IMG/VR virus record: IMGVR_UViG_3300009481_002368
Location: 1 to 20,238 of that record
Source of the DNA: a virus
Strand: one strand, 5' to 3'
Length of the DNA: 20,238 bases
The position numbers and the translations under genes were made by a program. Position 1 is the first letter of the stretch. Each line of letters begins with the position of its first letter. This document shows, in pieces, positions 4,276-19,041 of the stretch. Below the pieces are notes generated by a model. It did no database searches and was not told where the DNA came from. It saw only the letters and a list, made by a program, of their open reading frames with translations.

Positions 4276-4860
4276 TTAGTTCTCCTTATAAATGTTGATT
4301 AAGAATCCTTCGTGTTCCTGATCCGTAATCCGATACGGATACCCCAAAAAATGAAATTTGTCGTCGCCAATGGAGTTTGTTACGATATCAATCTTCCTAT
4401 TCATCTCTATGCAAGATGTTATCTCCTTAACAAACTCCTCTCTTTCACTTTCGTCTACAATATTTACCCAATCAAATCCTTCTTTTGGGTTGTCACATCC
4501 TTCAGATATCTCCTCAAACTTCTCGTTGAACCAAGAGATTCTCCCAAAGCTGTCTACTTCCAATAAAGCCCTGTCATGATAATGTAGAGACGCCTTTGAC
4601 CTTTGGTCTAGCACCTTTTGGCTTCTCTCTATGTTACTGCATGTCTTCCTTAGACAGTTAATAGCGTCTTTCATTGAGCCGCCACCGTTGGGCGTAACCT
4701 CGCCCTTGATGGTCTCGATAGATTTTTTAATGTCCTCTTGGTCATCTAAAAATTTTATTGCTGGCTTTACTAACTTTCTCCACATGAAAATGCCTACTGA
4801 AGTTAAAATCCCAGCAATCGTACTTGCTAAAGCTAAACCTTCTGCATCAAAGGAAAACAT
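4276..4860 (-). CDS. Membrane-anchored PAS-domain protein, 194 aa
   Basis: A hydrophobic segment at residues 8-27 (LALASTIAGILTSVGIFMW) is followed by a charged, probably coiled linker (residues 35-90). A PAS-like fold follows from about residue 93 to the C-terminus. It shows the typical PAS opening (DRALLEVDSFGRISWFNEKF), the middle FDWVNIVDESEREEFVKEI and a closing strand pair (FHFLGYPYRITDQEHEGFLI). PAS domains bind small ligands or proteins and usually transmit a signal to an output domain. None is present here, so the protein would have to act by binding. Its GGAG ribosome-binding site sits immediately after the terminator hairpin of the preceding gene, so expression probably depends on read-through. 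The PAS call is fairly sure; the ligand is unknown. Confidence 0.72.
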   Translation of the reverse strand: MFSFDAEGLALASTIAGILTSVGIFMWRKLVKPAIKFLDDQEDIKKSIETIKGEVTPNGGGSMKDAINCLRKTCSNIERSQKVLDQRSKASLHYHDRALLEVDSFGRISWFNEKFEEISEGCDNPKEGFDWVNIVDESEREEFVKEITSCIEMNRKIDIVTNSIGDDKFHFLGYPYRITDQEHEGFLINIYKEN

Positions 4861-4871
4861 ATCAAACTCCC

Positions 4872-4905
4872 AAAAAAAGGTTCCCCCTGCGAACAGAGGG
4901 AACCT
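4872..4905 (-). terminator. Rho-independent terminator after the Gly/Ala-rich protein gene
   Basis: AGGTTCCC (4905-4898) pairs with GGGAACCT (4885-4878), with further pairing inward, followed by a run of seven T (4878-4872). It is one of the strongest hairpins in the window and lies 20 bases after the stop of the gene ending at 4926. The next gene's start (4860) is only 12 bases beyond the T-run. Confidence 0.9.
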
Positions 4906-4925
4906 GATTACAGCAAACTAAAATA

Positions 4926-5645
4926 TTAAGAAGACGTATCAGTTTCGTCTTCGTAAGCATCTTTAGCTTTATAAGCGTCAGTCGTAGGCTTGGCTTGACC
5001 ACCAAAGTGGTAGGTCAATTCGCCGGGAACTGCGCGAGTTGGGAAGATTTCAGTTGAAACAGCGGCTGTACCATCTGCTGGGTTAATCATAGTGGTAGCG
5101 TTTCCAGCATTTGAACCTTTGGTTCGACCGGGAACAATTTCAGTGCTTGGTCGAGCCATGGTGTCAAACGCTTCATCGGACTTATCACCAATCAACCGAT
5201 CAGCGATAGTGCCATGAGTATTGTCATATCGACCGTCACCAATAGTACCACCGAATTTTCTAATAGCAGTGTTGGAGTTTCCTCCGAGGTTCTCTGCTAC
5301 GCCTCTAATCACCCAGTCAGTTGCACTGGCGTTGAATGCAAGTGTGGCGTTATCAGCTACGCTTCCAGCAATCGCTCCGGAAATACCGACTCTATCAGTG
5401 GTAGAAGCGCCAGTGCCTACGTTACCAAGAACTTTGGAACCATAATCACTTCTGTCGCCAACATTGTCAGCAAGCGTGTCGATTGAAAGAGCGCTAGTCA
5501 CCGGACTGTCAGAAGCCTTGTTTCCAGCCTTAATAATGGTTCCTCCATCGACAACACCACTGTTATCAATGTCGTAGCCAGCAGCAAAAGTTGCACCTTT
5601 GGTTCCAACTAAAAAAGCTGAACCATATCTTTCAGGTAATGCCAT
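4926..5645 (-). CDS. Gly/Ala/Thr-rich probable structural protein, 239 aa
   Basis: No family is recognised. The composition is rich in Gly, Ala, Ser, Thr, Asn and Asp with few long hydrophobic stretches, and it contains recurring short turns (GNVGTGASTTDR, ISGAIAGSVADNAT, KGSNAGNATT). Cysteine is absent. This is typical of extracellular, beta-rich virion components such as decoration or fibre proteins, but it is not diagnostic. The gene stands alone: a leader of 77 bases with a strong TAGGAGAT ribosome-binding site precedes it and a strong terminator follows, an arrangement that favours high independent expression. It lies immediately downstream of the sigma-like gene, which may control it. 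Confidence 0.7.
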   Translation of the reverse strand: MALPERYGSAFLVGTKGATFAAGYDIDNSGVVDGGTIIKAGNKASDSPVTSALSIDTLADNVGDRSDYGSKVLGNVGTGASTTDRVGISGAIAGSVADNATLAFNASATDWVIRGVAENLGGNSNTAIRKFGGTIGDGRYDNTHGTIADRLIGDKSDEAFDTMARPSTEIVPGRTKGSNAGNATTMINPADGTAAVSTEIFPTRAVPGELTYHFGGQAKPTTDAYKAKDAYEDETDTSS

Positions 5646-5721: not shown

Positions 5722-5752
5722 ATTATACACTTTTTGAGAGCGAATTTCTCAA
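5722..5752 (-). promoter_or_regulatory. Possible promoter for the Gly/Ala-rich protein gene
   Basis: TATAAT (5727-5722) is exact, but the best upstream hexamer, TTGAGA (5752-5747), is 19 bases away rather than 17, and both lie in the end of the sigma-like gene. The gap down to the ATG at 5645 holds no gene and would be the leader. This could be a weak sigma-70 promoter or a promoter of a different class. Confidence 0.3.
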
Positions 5753-6256
5753 CTTTTTTAAATTTTTATTTATTCTTATGCGGATAGTTTCACCGCAAAC
5801 ACCCCTGCTTTCCGCTATTTCCTTGATTGACATGTTTTTGTAGAACCTATCAAGAATCAGGCTGGGATCTTCGCAGGCAAAATTTATTTCGTCGAGCATG
5901 TCTACTTGATCGTAATGCTTCTTGGAGTCTTCAATATTTGCGTGTATCTTGCCGCCAAAGCTCAACTTGTTCTTGTTAAACTTCTTTTGGCTGAGGCATT
6001 CCATTACTACCCCTTTGTAGAGGTAGGTGGTGAACTTGCATCTAGAATCTACTGAATATCTATCGAGAGCCTTCCATAAAGCATTCATGCAACATGTAGC
6101 AATCTCATCTTGAGAAAGATTGTATCTAAATGTAGAACATGCCTTCTGGAGGATCTTAATGATGTCCTCGCTGTCTATATTGTTGCTTTCGGCAATCTCT
6201 TTAAAAACTCCCGCTTCTAAAACTTCTTTCAACTCTTGTTTTTCAAAATCTGTCAC
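5723..6256 (-). CDS. Phage sigma-70-family-like factor, 177 aa
   Basis: Residues 48-90 resemble sigma region 2: an acidic-hydrophobic helix (SQDEIATCCMNALWKALDRY) followed by the aromatic, basic core-binding and -10 recognition stretch (CKFTTYLYKGVVMECL). Residues 140-170 form a helix-turn-helix like region 4 (YKNMSIKEIAESRGVCGETI then RIRINKNLKKLR). The protein is short, about the size of ECF-type or phage late sigma factors, with an unusual N-terminal 45 residues. It starts with GTG, which overlaps the preceding TGA as GTGA and has AGGAG upstream. It probably binds host RNA polymerase to redirect it, perhaps to late genes such as the structural-like gene just downstream. The fold is likely; the target promoters are unknown. 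Confidence 0.8.
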   Translation of the reverse strand: MTDFEKQELKEVLEAGVFKEIAESNNIDSEDIIKILQKACSTFRYNLSQDEIATCCMNALWKALDRYSVDSRCKFTTYLYKGVVMECLSQKKFNKNKLSFGGKIHANIEDSKKHYDQVDMLDEINFACEDPSLILDRFYKNMSIKEIAESRGVCGETIRIRINKNLKKLRNSLSKSV

Positions 6257-9718: not shown

Positions 9719-10243
9719 TTAAAAAATTTCAAACTTTTCTGCGCTTTCAATAAGCAGACTATTATCTAGCTTGAGCTTCGATATGAATCTTATGTCCATG
9801 CGATGGCCTATCTCTTTTAAGACCATGTCGTATTTCTTCGTCCATATGTCACCCTTCGGCTGTGACAGATCAGAAAATACCACCTCTTTGACTCCACACT
9901 GCCAAAGCATCTGCAAGCAGGTCGTGCATGGTGCAGCGGTAATATAAGCACTAGCTCCCAGTGTACTTTTACCCTCTCTAGCGCAATTATAAATGGCGTT
10001 AGCCTCTGCGTGTATCATGTATGGATATTTTTCAGGCCTTGTGTTCGGCAGCCTAGTGTCGTCAATGTCCCTCATGAAGCCGTTGTATCCAGTTGCTATG
10101 CTAGTCTTGTTTTTGACAAGGATACATCCACATTGTGTCTGCGAATCGTGACTCCTCCTCGACCAAAGCACGGCTTCCGAAAAGAAAATATTATCCCAAT
10201 CTGTTGGATCTGCTCCATTTGCAACTATTAACTGAGACAGCAT
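9719..10243 (-). CDS. dCMP deaminase-like zinc enzyme, 174 aa
   Basis: The enzyme should convert dCMP to dUMP, feeding thymidylate synthesis by the ThyX encoded in the same gene run. The zinc site is complete: HAEANAIYN (H78, catalytic E80) and PCTTCLQMLWQCG (C106, C109), with the ATGYNGFMRDIDDTRLP loop seen in deoxycytidylate deaminases. I use the ATG at 10243, which has GGGGA upstream; the longer frame would extend into the tmRNA. Length and motif spacing are normal for the dCMP deaminase branch. A ComEB-like deaminase or a relative with another nucleotide substrate is the main alternative. Confidence 0.9.
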   Translation of the reverse strand: MLSQLIVANGADPTDWDNIFFSEAVLWSRRSHDSQTQCGCILVKNKTSIATGYNGFMRDIDDTRLPNTRPEKYPYMIHAEANAIYNCAREGKSTLGASAYITAAPCTTCLQMLWQCGVKEVVFSDLSQPKGDIWTKKYDMVLKEIGHRMDIRFISKLKLDNSLLIESAEKFEIF

Positions 10244-10261: not shown

Positions 10262-10451
10262 AAAAGAGGCCAGCTTGGGTAGCAAGGCGCTGGCCAAACC
10301 CCGTGACCTAAAAGGTCAGTTGGCAGCTAGGCCGCCAGTGCGAAATTCTTTTCGACACTTAAAAAGTCGATTAGATTTTTTACGTAGCCCTTCTAATCAC
10401 CTACGACATGCAGTCATTACCTACGCAACCAGTCGATACCATTACGCCCCC
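10262..10451 (-). ncRNA. tmRNA coding piece
   Basis: It begins with the acceptor-stem strand GGGGGCG at 10451, continues through the conserved GGTATCGACTGG, the P2 strand, the tag frame, a hairpin at 10318-10304 and a pseudoknot at 10301-10268. The pseudoknot's second stem is followed by TCTTTTACTTTTT, so it could also act as a weak terminator just before the dCMP deaminase. The 3' end is approximate. Confidence 0.85.
10327..10389 (-). other. Predicted tmRNA tag reading frame, 20 codons plus stop
   Basis: The frame GGC...GCC TAG encodes GYVKNLIDFL followed by SVEKNFALAA. The end, KNFALAA, closely parallels the E. coli tag end (ENYALAA), the ClpXP and SspB-type degron. The frame is bounded upstream by an in-frame TAG at 10395-10393, so the resume codon is GGC or the preceding AAG. 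The tag is longer than common tags of 10-15 residues. Confidence 0.75.
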
Positions 10452-10464
10452 GTAAGTTGGCAAG
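10452..10464 (-). other. Intervening segment of the permuted tmRNA
   Basis: Thirteen bases (CTTGCCAACTTAC) join the acceptor 3' end to the coding-piece 5' end. In characterised permuted tmRNAs such a segment is cut out by tRNA-type end processing. This one is very short. Confidence 0.8.
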
Positions 10465-10531
10465 TGGAGGCGGGGAGAATCGAACTCCCGTCCTGCTTTG
10501 TTTCAATAATAACGTCTACATGCTTATCCCC
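10465..10531 (-). ncRNA. tmRNA acceptor piece (tRNA-like 3' half)
   Basis: From GGGGATAAGCATGTAGACG to the discriminator A at 10465. It holds the T arm and the 3' side of the seven-base-pair acceptor stem. The AAGCATGTAG stretch is a hallmark of the tmRNA 3' region. The mature 5' end is uncertain; a CCCC-GTTT-GGGG hairpin (10538-10527) covers the likely processing region. Confidence 0.88.
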
Positions 10532-10539
10532 AAACGGGG

Positions 10540-10734
10540 CTAATCTTTTCTAAAAAACTTCTTGTATAACATCCAAAAAAAACTTTTGAACACACTCCTG
10601 TGAATCACTCTTCCATTTCTTTCAGCGAGGCCAAAGTGATCTAGTGAGCATTTGTCGCAAAACCAAAGAGAGCATATCCTACACTTATAACCATCGACAC
10701 ACTCAATGTTCTTGTCGCAATTACTGCATTTCAT
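10540..10734 (-). CDS. Small zinc-binding protein, 64 aa
   Basis: The first 35 residues carry a dense set of metal ligands: CSNCDKNIECVDGYKCRICS then LWFCDKCSLDHFG. This CxxC-x(6-7)-C-x4-CxxC pattern with CxxC and a nearby histidine resembles a B-box, AN1 or ZZ-type zinc finger binding one or two zinc ions. The C-terminal third is basic and aromatic (SVFKSFFWMLYKKFFRKD), possibly a membrane- or RNA-associating helix. I prefer the ATG at 10734, spaced from GGGATGAGG; an ATG at 10740 is also possible. It overlaps the upstream gene by 14 bases and ends nine bases before the tmRNA acceptor piece. Confidence 0.75.
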   Translation of the reverse strand: MKCSNCDKNIECVDGYKCRICSLWFCDKCSLDHFGLAERNGRVIHRSVFKSFFWMLYKKFFRKD

Positions 10735-17535: not shown

Positions 17536-17781
17536 TTATTCTCCTCTAAAAGAATTGTAGTTTTGTTTGTTATCGTCGTAATATTGTTTGTTCTCTAACA
17601 CAGAAGTTGCCTCATGCTCATGCTTGAAGTAATGCTTGAATTGCTTGTACAATGCCTTGACTTGCTCAAAAGCCTCGTTCTCATCAATTTTACCCCCCTG
17701 CTCTAGGTCACAAATAATTGACATCTGTATGTTAAAAGCCCTGAATGGATCGTCATACTTTTCAAATTTGAACTTACTCAT
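17536..17781 (-). CDS. Small soluble hypothetical protein, 81 aa
   Basis: The protein is helical and rich in Lys, Glu, Tyr and His (MSKFKFEKYDDPFRAFNIQM, then KALYKQFKHYFKHEHEAT). There are no membrane segments or clear motifs; a run of His and Lys near the centre may bind metal. It begins with a TAATG overlap of the M19 peptidase stop, so it is translated together with that enzyme. Confidence 0.75.
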   Translation of the reverse strand: MSKFKFEKYDDPFRAFNIQMSIICDLEQGGKIDENEAFEQVKALYKQFKHYFKHEHEATSVLENKQYYDDNKQNYNSFRGE

Positions 17782-19013
17782 TATCTCCAGCCTCCGCGCA
17801 ACACTCTTAAAGCATTACCTCCTAAAAACTTAGCTATCACCTCGTCTGAATATTTTTGTTTTCCACCCTTGCTTGTCAGGCACTTTAGATACTTAGTGAT
17901 CCTCGGTAGCTCTGCCATGTCTGTGATCTCGTCTGGTGGATCGGTGAAGCCATCAAAGTCCGTCCCAATCCCAACAATGTCTGACCCTCCGATCTTCATA
18001 GCATGTTCCAAGGTTCTCTCAATGTATTTGATGCCTAGAGGTGAGTCAACGGGACTGATCCAATAGTTCATAAAAATAATACCGAGAACTCCACCGTGAG
18101 TAGCAAACCATTCAAGCTCCCAGTCGTGCAGGTTGTATGGGTCTGGGTTTATCTCAAAAACTCCTGTATGGCTACTTATGACTTGGCTCTGCCTATCTCC
18201 AACTATGTCGTAGACTTCCGATCTAGCCTTCGGTGTGCAATGTGCAATGTCGATAATCATTTTGAGATCGCACATGCGCTCTACAACCTTCTTGCCGATG
18301 CTAGACAAGCCGATGTTCATGTCCCAAGCTCCCATGAGATGTTTCCAATTGCTACGTTTGATTCCGTAGTTGGGGTATGGGAATACTGGGTGGGCGAGCA
18401 TGTTGGGGTAGAAATGTGCGAGTGTCAGGTAGGCTACGCCTCTTTCAGCGAAGTAGTCAAGGTGCTGAAGTATCTCCGTCTCCTTGACCTTCATATCCGT
18501 AGAGGTTTCACAGTCAAGCCCAGAGAGGCTATGACCCCCCTCGATGGAATGTACTAGGGCTATCTGACCTTCTTCGATACATTTATTCATCTCGGTACTA
18601 TTGAGTACCACCCTGACTTCTTTTGCGTCTTCAGCCTTTATTTTGTTGTTGTATTTCAGCACATGGGCTTCCATATCATCCATCATGTTGACGGTGGCAT
18701 CAAAGTAGAACGGGTCAAAGACACGCTTTCTGACCTTCGGAGAAAATTTAAGGGCGAGTCTGACCAAGCTCTGGTCGTCAAGCCATTCTCTCTCTGGGAT
18801 GTAGCATGTTGAAAGCACAACGTCTGTGTTACCCTTCTCAATTAGCGGGAAGGTGCTACGCTGACTCAAAGGCCAAAAGGTTCGCTTAAAAAGTTTAGCC
18901 AAGAACTTAGGCTTACTGGCGGTCAAGTCCCTATCTAAAAGGAATCTTTTAAGAACAGCGTGGTTGTGCAGATCAACCACAGTGGACTGTTCATGTAAAT
19001 CTCTCCAATTCAT
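17781..19013 (-). CDS. M19-family (renal dipeptidase-like) metallopeptidase, 410 aa
   Basis: The family hydrolyses dipeptides and some D-residue or beta-lactam bonds with two zinc ions. Numbered from the ATG at 19013: DLHNH (14-18), VHSIEGGHSL (E158), LAHFYPN, IIDIAHCTPKARSEVYDI (H258), SSHTGV (H282), GIGTDFDG (D352) and FLGGNALRVL follow the family order. The first motif is HxH (H16, H18) where most members have HxD. There is no signal peptide, although cellular members are often exported. I chose 19013 because GGAG lies eight bases upstream; 19025 is in frame. It is first in the long operon, directly after a perfect promoter, so it should be strongly expressed. Its role in a phage is unclear. 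Confidence 0.93.
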   Translation of the reverse strand: MNWRDLHEQSTVVDLHNHAVLKRFLLDRDLTASKPKFLAKLFKRTFWPLSQRSTFPLIEKGNTDVVLSTCYIPEREWLDDQSLVRLALKFSPKVRKRVFDPFYFDATVNMMDDMEAHVLKYNNKIKAEDAKEVRVVLNSTEMNKCIEEGQIALVHSIEGGHSLSGLDCETSTDMKVKETEILQHLDYFAERGVAYLTLAHFYPNMLAHPVFPYPNYGIKRSNWKHLMGAWDMNIGLSSIGKKVVERMCDLKMIIDIAHCTPKARSEVYDIVGDRQSQVISSHTGVFEINPDPYNLHDWELEWFATHGGVLGIIFMNYWISPVDSPLGIKYIERTLEHAMKIGGSDIVGIGTDFDGFTDPPDEITDMAELPRITKYLKCLTSKGGKQKYSDEVIAKFLGGNALRVLRGGWR

Positions 19014-19041
19014 AATATACTCCATAAAATATAGCTACAGT

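Follow-up and report, generated by a model that had tools for sequence, protein, structure and literature searches.

A phage-encoded two-piece tmRNA and the occurrence of permuted and one-piece tmRNA genes in the same gene slot of related phages

Transfer-messenger RNA (tmRNA) genes in which the acceptor half precedes the coding half yield a two-piece RNA and are represented by the family RF04321 (tmRNA_permuted), known from Alphaproteobacteria, Betaproteobacteria and Cyanobacteria. It has long been asked how, and for what reason, two-piece tmRNA arose on several occasions; a duplication-and-loss model has been proposed (PMC3978253). Permuted tmRNA genes are also known from phages; a 2022 report on marine phages describes methylophage Melnitz and 53 two-piece phage tmRNAs (PMC9004378). 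Here we analyzed a permuted tmRNA gene of a marine phage, in a viral DNA of 20,238 nucleotides (IMG/VR record IMGVR_UViG_3300009481_002368, positions 1 to 20,238; hereafter, the window). An earlier sequence-only reading of this DNA overstated the novelty of a permuted tmRNA in a phage operon. What is new is a phage tmRNA of labile topology, accompanied in related phages by tmRNA-associated HNH endonuclease genes.

The tmRNA of the window resembles the RF04321 tmRNAs in its acceptor-first order, short spacer, G3:U70 pair, T arm, P2 helix, pseudoknot PK1 and tag frame. In contrast, the core of the window and phage tmRNAs is nearer to one-piece tmRNAs of Planctomycetota and phages, the phage tags have nine residues of the VEKNFALAA or AEPSFALAA type, and in part of the phage clade the stop codon is enclosed by a further hairpin, the pairs of which covary. 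The Melnitz group similarly carries a permuted tmRNA in part of its members (17 of 47 contigs). However, that group is linked to SAR11 myophages, and a glutamine riboswitch accompanies its tmRNA, whereas no riboswitch attained the Rfam threshold in the window (cmscan); the accessible part of that paper mentions no one-piece tmRNA at the corresponding locus (PMC9004378). We did not find a T4-type Gp23 capsid in relatives of the window, but the controls were silent as well.

The sequence-only reading had proposed a circularly permuted, two-piece tmRNA and had named a covariance-model search as the check. In this search (cmscan), RF04321 matched positions 10523-10327 of the minus strand with 85.6 bits (E 1.7e-15; gathering cut-off, 47 bits) over the full length of the model (1-213). 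Further, ARAGORN independently reported a permuted tmRNA (tmRNA*) with the tag VEKNFALAA, and all of the elements named earlier were present. The RF01849 alpha_tmRNA model barely exceeded its cut-off (50.5 versus 50 bits), and a DNA similarity search of the tmRNA against 50,697 phage records gave no match. The intact gene extends from 10540 to 10268 on the minus strand, in the order acceptor half, spacer, coding half, and comprises the following parts.

10465-10540, minus strand: acceptor (tRNA-like 3') half with a hairpin, the P2 5' strands, the T arm, the 3' acceptor strand and the discriminator A at 10465 (Rfam match, pair counts, sequence)
10528-10540, minus strand: hairpin of the GCCCC-GTTT-GGGG type, 5'-terminal in the acceptor half (sequence)
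10473-10489, minus strand: T arm, GGGAG-TTCGATT-CTCCC (100% paired; covariation in 2 of 5 pairs)
10466-10472, minus strand: 3' strand of the acceptor stem, CGCCTCC, partner of 10445-10451 (alignment pair counts)
10452-10464, minus strand: intervening sequence of 13 nt, CTTGCCAACTTAC, which tRNA-type processing would remove (sequence)
10268-10451, minus strand: coding half with the 5' acceptor strand GGGGGCG, the P2 3' strands, PK1, the tag frame, the stop-codon hairpin, a further hairpin and pseudoknot PK2 (Rfam match, pair counts, sequence)
10368-10405, minus strand: PK1, CGTAG/CTACG with TGATTAGA/TCTAATCG (two-sided changes in 7 of 13 pairs)
10327-10356, minus strand: tag reading frame GTC...TAG, encoding VEKNFALAA*, with GTC as the resume codon (ARAGORN)
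10321-10337, minus strand: hairpin around the tag stop codon, TGGCGG...CTGCCA (covaries among the six sequences having it)
10304-10318, minus strand: hairpin TGACC-TTTTA-GGTCA (alignment pair counts)
10268-10302, minus strand: PK2, GGGGN/N'CCTT with GGCCAGC/GCTGGCC, in which N:N', the fifth pair of stem S1, is U-A, A-U, G-C or U-G (alignment pair counts)

The 13-base separation of the two halves agrees exactly with the earlier reading, which had named no strand. The CCA addition point that it placed at 10465 was also correct; CCA is not encoded at the acceptor end (CCTCCA-C-TTG in the window) and must therefore be added. Two of its details needed correction. The acceptor stem indeed has seven pairs but is not "perfect" in the Watson-Crick sense, as it contains the wobble pair G3:U70, the alanine identity pair; and the single H-type pseudoknot that it described is one of two, PK1 and PK2.

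We counted the pairs of a named structure in an alignment of 13 permuted tmRNAs from related phages. Standard pairs occupied 93.6% of 785 pair cells, compared with 37-50% in controls with slid partners. Two-sided changes were found in 25 pairs, as compared with a mean of 14.6 in shuffled alignments, and none of 500 shuffles reached this number. The changes were located in the inter-piece P2 helix, T arm, acceptor stem, PK1, stop-codon hairpin and PK2, those of P2 and PK1 involving helices 1-3, 6 and 7. The 7-bp acceptor stem was paired in 100% of cases and G3:U70 was present in all 13 sequences. Further, a tmRNA outside the alignment (contig L044) possesses a different acceptor stem, GGGCCAU/AUGGUCC, which is fully paired and keeps G3:U70. 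Covariation and kept pairing thus support, from sequence alone, a maintained two-piece RNA, and the acceptor stem, T arm, P2, both pseudoknots and the stop-codon hairpin on the minus strand are backed by covariation. We consider it highly probable that the window encodes a working two-piece tmRNA within a metabolic phage transcript.

Relatives were collected by neighbor-based searches and one pattern scan. About 28 viral contigs of this phage group carry a permuted tmRNA, most in the same gene slot. The VEKNFALAA* tag, with its stop codon and hydrophobic end, is conserved in relatives; the tag families were VEKNFALAA, VEENFALAA, GVENYAMAA, AEPCFALAA, AEPSFALAA, AKPSFALAA, ADESLALAA and AEETLALAA. 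Spacers measured 5 nt (L041, L043), approximately 8-20 nt, approximately 70-130 nt (L036, L044, L103, L107) or approximately 590 nt (L045). The approximately 120-nt spacers L103:4660-4782 and L044:3610-3732 have common ends, AGAAGCACACTA...TAGTGTGTTTCT, which could extend the acceptor stem as a helix, and the spacer L107:4435-4561 consists of two imperfect copies of AAGTTGGGTCAGGGTTCCCA...AAAACCCA. In the permuted tmRNA L044:3733-4000, an 18-bp inverted repeat brackets an insert of approximately 100 nt within the PK1 region.

One-piece tmRNA genes were found in contigs with the same gene order (L039, L093, L096, L097, L109 and L170; RF00023, 90-119 bits where scanned); for L039, direct comparison with the window showed the same order. 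A second one-piece type occurs in L099-L102, and a motif scan gave further one-piece cases. The tag of the one-piece tmRNA of L096 and that of the permuted tmRNA of L006 have GTCGAAGAGAATTTCGCACT in common (20 identical nt), and one-piece L039 shares AACCTAGTTTTGC with permuted L045, L103 and L107. Tag cassettes thus cross topology, via exchange or as an old shared polymorphism; unlike them, PK1 goes with topology. In a tree of four neighboring proteins, the one-piece phages fell in two places. The tmRNA gene topology is labile in this phage clade, and the presence of one-piece and permuted genes in the same slot, with shared tag cassettes, makes the duplication-and-loss question testable. In addition, L194:2065-2452 and its relatives encode a one-piece tmRNA with a 24-residue tag, AKTAKYKGHISARVSLVEETASVA, the end of which is not AA.

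The approximately 590-nt spacer of L045 contains an open reading frame (4447-4977) that matched PHROG 3322 endonuclease (6.5e-23). Using three such proteins as queries, with no reference to tmRNA, we obtained 13 viral loci. In eight, the gene lay in a permuted-tmRNA spacer; a one-piece tmRNA immediately preceded it in four and was convergent with it in the remaining one. In a wider search, which combined Rfam, ARAGORN, nhmmer, flank reading and whole-record checks, a tmRNA lay beside or around the HNH gene in 33 of 41 nearer viral loci (L256-L296, two of which repeat earlier contigs) but in none of 39 more distant loci (ARAGORN/nhmmer). Most of the nearer relatives of the spacer HNH genes adjoin a one-piece tmRNA or are located in a tmRNA intron. 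In total, ten contigs have an HNH gene inside the permuted-tmRNA spacer (L045, L053, L115, L186-L188, L190, L191, L256, L261). PHROG 3322 matched nine of nine HNH members (best E 2.3e-28), whereas no Pfam HNH match was obtained for these proteins, and a structure model (predicted local distance difference test score, 60) was not used. The HNH proteins conserve an LDRxD..GY..N stretch, as in PacI (3ldy) and the PHROG 3322 and endonuclease VII families, although the match to PacI is weak (E 0.079). In the Marinimicrobia metagenome-assembled genome (MAG) L221, the tmRNA-HNH pair represents an additional tmRNA copy, as the genome also has its own tmRNA, and the pair is thus probably viral. Several of these tmRNA genes were missed by ARAGORN, and the length of a tmRNA spacer cannot be assumed to be short.

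Other mobile elements are known to exploit tmRNA or tRNA genes. Group I introns in the T loop of tmRNA bear LAGLIDADG homing endonuclease genes (PMC11915505), and a free-standing HNH gene lies at the end of a tRNA gene of phage CBB (PMC5259590). The present genes likewise parasitize tmRNA genes, but they are of the HNH type and reside in permuted spacers or one-piece 3' flanks; for permuted spacers, the accessible part of the former paper reports one tRNA gene and one repeat, and no protein gene (PMC11915505). Among open-licence papers, we found none that deals with HNH genes occupying the spacer or 3' flank of a tmRNA gene. An endonuclease family that parasitizes tmRNA in four ways, namely from the 3' flank, from a T-loop intron, from the permuted spacer and from the 5' side of the permuted gene, is undescribed in the searchable part of that literature.

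We lean slightly toward opportunistic homing as the explanation: the HNH endonucleases would target conserved acceptor/T-arm DNA in tmRNA (and tRNA-Ala) genes, their own genes would be tolerated in the spacer, 3' flank or intron since such segments are cut out or lie outside the mature RNA, and they would have had no part in permutation. One family occurs 3' of one-piece tmRNAs, in permuted spacers, inside or next to T-loop group I introns of tmRNA genes (inside the intron and in antisense orientation in L214:1471-2031, L215, L216, L218 and L277, from crAss-like phages such as L214 and L215, Firmicutes MAGs and others) and directly after tRNA-Ala (L266:2873-3534, L270, L271, L288), which shares G3:U70 with tmRNA. 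We had considered that the crAss-type relatives might be unrelated to tmRNA; this was ruled out, as at least two sit in T-loop introns of tmRNA genes. Further, hairpins burying the ribosome-binding site were predicted in the read-through leaders of the spacer HNH genes (-12 to -26 kcal/mol; z -1.7 to -6.1, six tested), and a TGTATAATA-like internal -10 box lies within the hairpin. In the td intron of phage T4, the ribosome-binding site of I-TevI is hidden by a hairpin in the long transcript and freed by transcription from an internal promoter. Transcripts from the internal box of the spacer HNH genes would similarly lack the 5' arm of the hairpin; unlike I-TevI, these genes lie in no intron, and such regulation is predicted from folding. 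A family of endonuclease genes parasitizing tmRNA in these arrangements would show the discarded spacer to be an intron-like refuge for mobile genes. Opportunistic insertion does not, however, itself account for the variation of topology within one phage clade.

That the HNH genes caused permutation is an attractive but unproven idea that we regard as doubtful. In this scenario, tandem duplication or break repair would have fused an HNH gene lying 3' of a one-piece tmRNA to the coding half of a further tmRNA copy, giving the order acceptor-HNH-coding, and later loss of HNH would have left a short spacer such as that of the window. With few exceptions, in permuted and one-piece genes alike, the HNH start is found approximately 40-90 bp past the end of the acceptor; nine HNHs from spacers cluster in a single clade (99/98), with HNHs located 3' of one-piece tmRNAs as nearest neighbors (89/86); in the main spacer clade, the HNH stop codon lies within the 5' acceptor strand of the coding half or closely follows it (GGGGGTGA and similar); and permuted and one-piece phage tmRNAs group together in the core tree described below. 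On the other hand, the HNH position is explained equally well if HNH genes later entered the spacers of genes that were already permuted, several HNH genes sit 5' of a permuted tmRNA (L270, L278, L281, L289), and the trees and approximately unbiased (AU) tests do not fix in which direction the topology changed. Intermediates with a duplicated half were not seen, and to our knowledge none has been described for the duplication-and-loss model. Matches to HNH remnants in the window were weak (best E 0.029) and none was convincing; several overlapped the tmRNA coding half. If HNH genes were the agent, they would supply the missing mechanism of permutation. It is similarly doubtful, yet conceivable, that phages are a place of topology change, with a single tmRNA lineage occurring in both forms within one phage clade, where a tmRNA-specialized HNH family, located at the acceptor 3' end in both topologies and filling the spacer in ten permuted genes, splits and re-orders the tmRNA gene, and that a two-piece tmRNA arose here separately from the three known bacterial lineages.

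The sequence-only reading had taken the gene as a pointer to the host lineage or to capture from it. We built a core tree from the mature RNA core without the tag, including 28 phage tmRNAs of both topologies and bacterial tmRNAs. All 28 phage tmRNAs formed a single clade (100/97) beside one-piece tmRNAs of Planctomycetota, the nearest of the bacterial tmRNAs sampled, and alphaproteobacterial permuted tmRNAs were separate (100/100). The mean core identity of the permuted phage tmRNAs was 67.5% to one-piece phage tmRNAs, 58.9% to Planctomycetota one-piece tmRNAs and 46.3% to alphaproteobacterial permuted tmRNAs. These results, together with the tag cassettes found in both topologies, argue against the view that the permuted tmRNA was captured from an alphaproteobacterial (or other classical) permuted lineage of a host, with the one-piece tmRNAs of sister phages acquired elsewhere as replacements unrelated to it. 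We consider such capture rather improbable, even though the alpha_tmRNA model just passes in the window and a published tree of Melnitz favors an alphaproteobacterial source (PMC9004378). The AU test (155 columns) rejected neither monophyly of the permuted phage forms (p 0.45) nor a clade joining phage and alphaproteobacterial permuted forms (p 0.29). Shared ancestry of the permuted and one-piece phage tmRNAs is therefore claimed as likely, not proven. Similarity of tags and core, in an uneven bacterial sample, makes Planctomycetota a possible host. Tags in Planctomycetota (L350, L361-L390), for example ANSNFALAA, AEPSYALAA and ADENLALAA, resemble phage tags.

A contribution of the phage to ribosome rescue, as the sequence-only reading had suggested, is the best interpretation of a permuted tmRNA in a phage operon that is conserved in related viral contigs. 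In the proposed pathway, host RNase P and 3' tRNA-processing enzymes (RNase Z) would cut at 10451 and 10465, with loss of the 13-nt spacer; the host CCA enzyme would add CCA, and the acceptor stem and P2 would hold the two pieces together. G3:U70 would permit charging by the host alanyl-tRNA synthetase. With host SmpB and EF-Tu, the tmRNA would then enter stalled ribosomes and append (A)VEKNFALAA, the LAA end of which would serve host proteases. SmpB was found in none of 28 phage records, several of 120-174 kb, although records may be incomplete; host SmpB must thus be borrowed. The likely benefit would be that ribosomes are kept free while infection degrades host mRNA, with a tag chosen by the phage. 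In related contigs, the same gene stands in the same place with diverged sequence and intact tags, of which almost all terminate in LAA, MAA or LVA. Some observations weigh against a working tmRNA. The single-sequence fold was mildly better than shuffles (z -1.8), which is not decisive alone; the valine resume codon is unusual; and no tmRNA was detected beside the same genes in the close relatives c27801, c12952, c20439 and c47668, which indicates that the tmRNA is dispensable. It is nevertheless very unlikely that the RNA is a decayed or decoy tmRNA that has lost its function in rescue, given the intact tag, G3:U70 and helices covarying across 13 sequences.

The tmRNA abuts the gene upstream without a gap, the first base of its 5' hairpin being the last base of the TAG of that gene, and lies among nucleotide-metabolism genes (ribonucleotide reductase, ThyX, SSB). 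The two adjacent genes are as follows.

10540-10734, minus strand: gene of a small zinc-ribbon protein, immediately upstream of the tmRNA, with ATG at 10734 or 10740 (sequence; homologues near the tmRNA in several relatives)
9719-10243, minus strand: dCMP deaminase gene, next downstream, with its start codon approximately 25 nt past PK2 (PHROG 174, 1.1e-33; start by sequence)

No promoter-like site was found between the tmRNA and 11169 (approximately 600 bp upstream), and the tmRNA is therefore probably cut from a longer transcript. The ribonucleotide reductase of the window is at most 57% identical to those of cultured phages. The terminase of a relative shows 24-33% identity to cultured phages, and owing to this remoteness the host could not be named. 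Elsewhere in related phage contigs, the manA RNA motif (RF01745) was found at L048:3154-3331 and L094:6843-7026. Further, the minus strand of the window encodes a small protein with sigma-70 region 4 (5723-6256), possibly a phage sigma factor, and a Peptidase M19 (membrane dipeptidase; 17781-19025), which is rare in phage records (10 weak matches).
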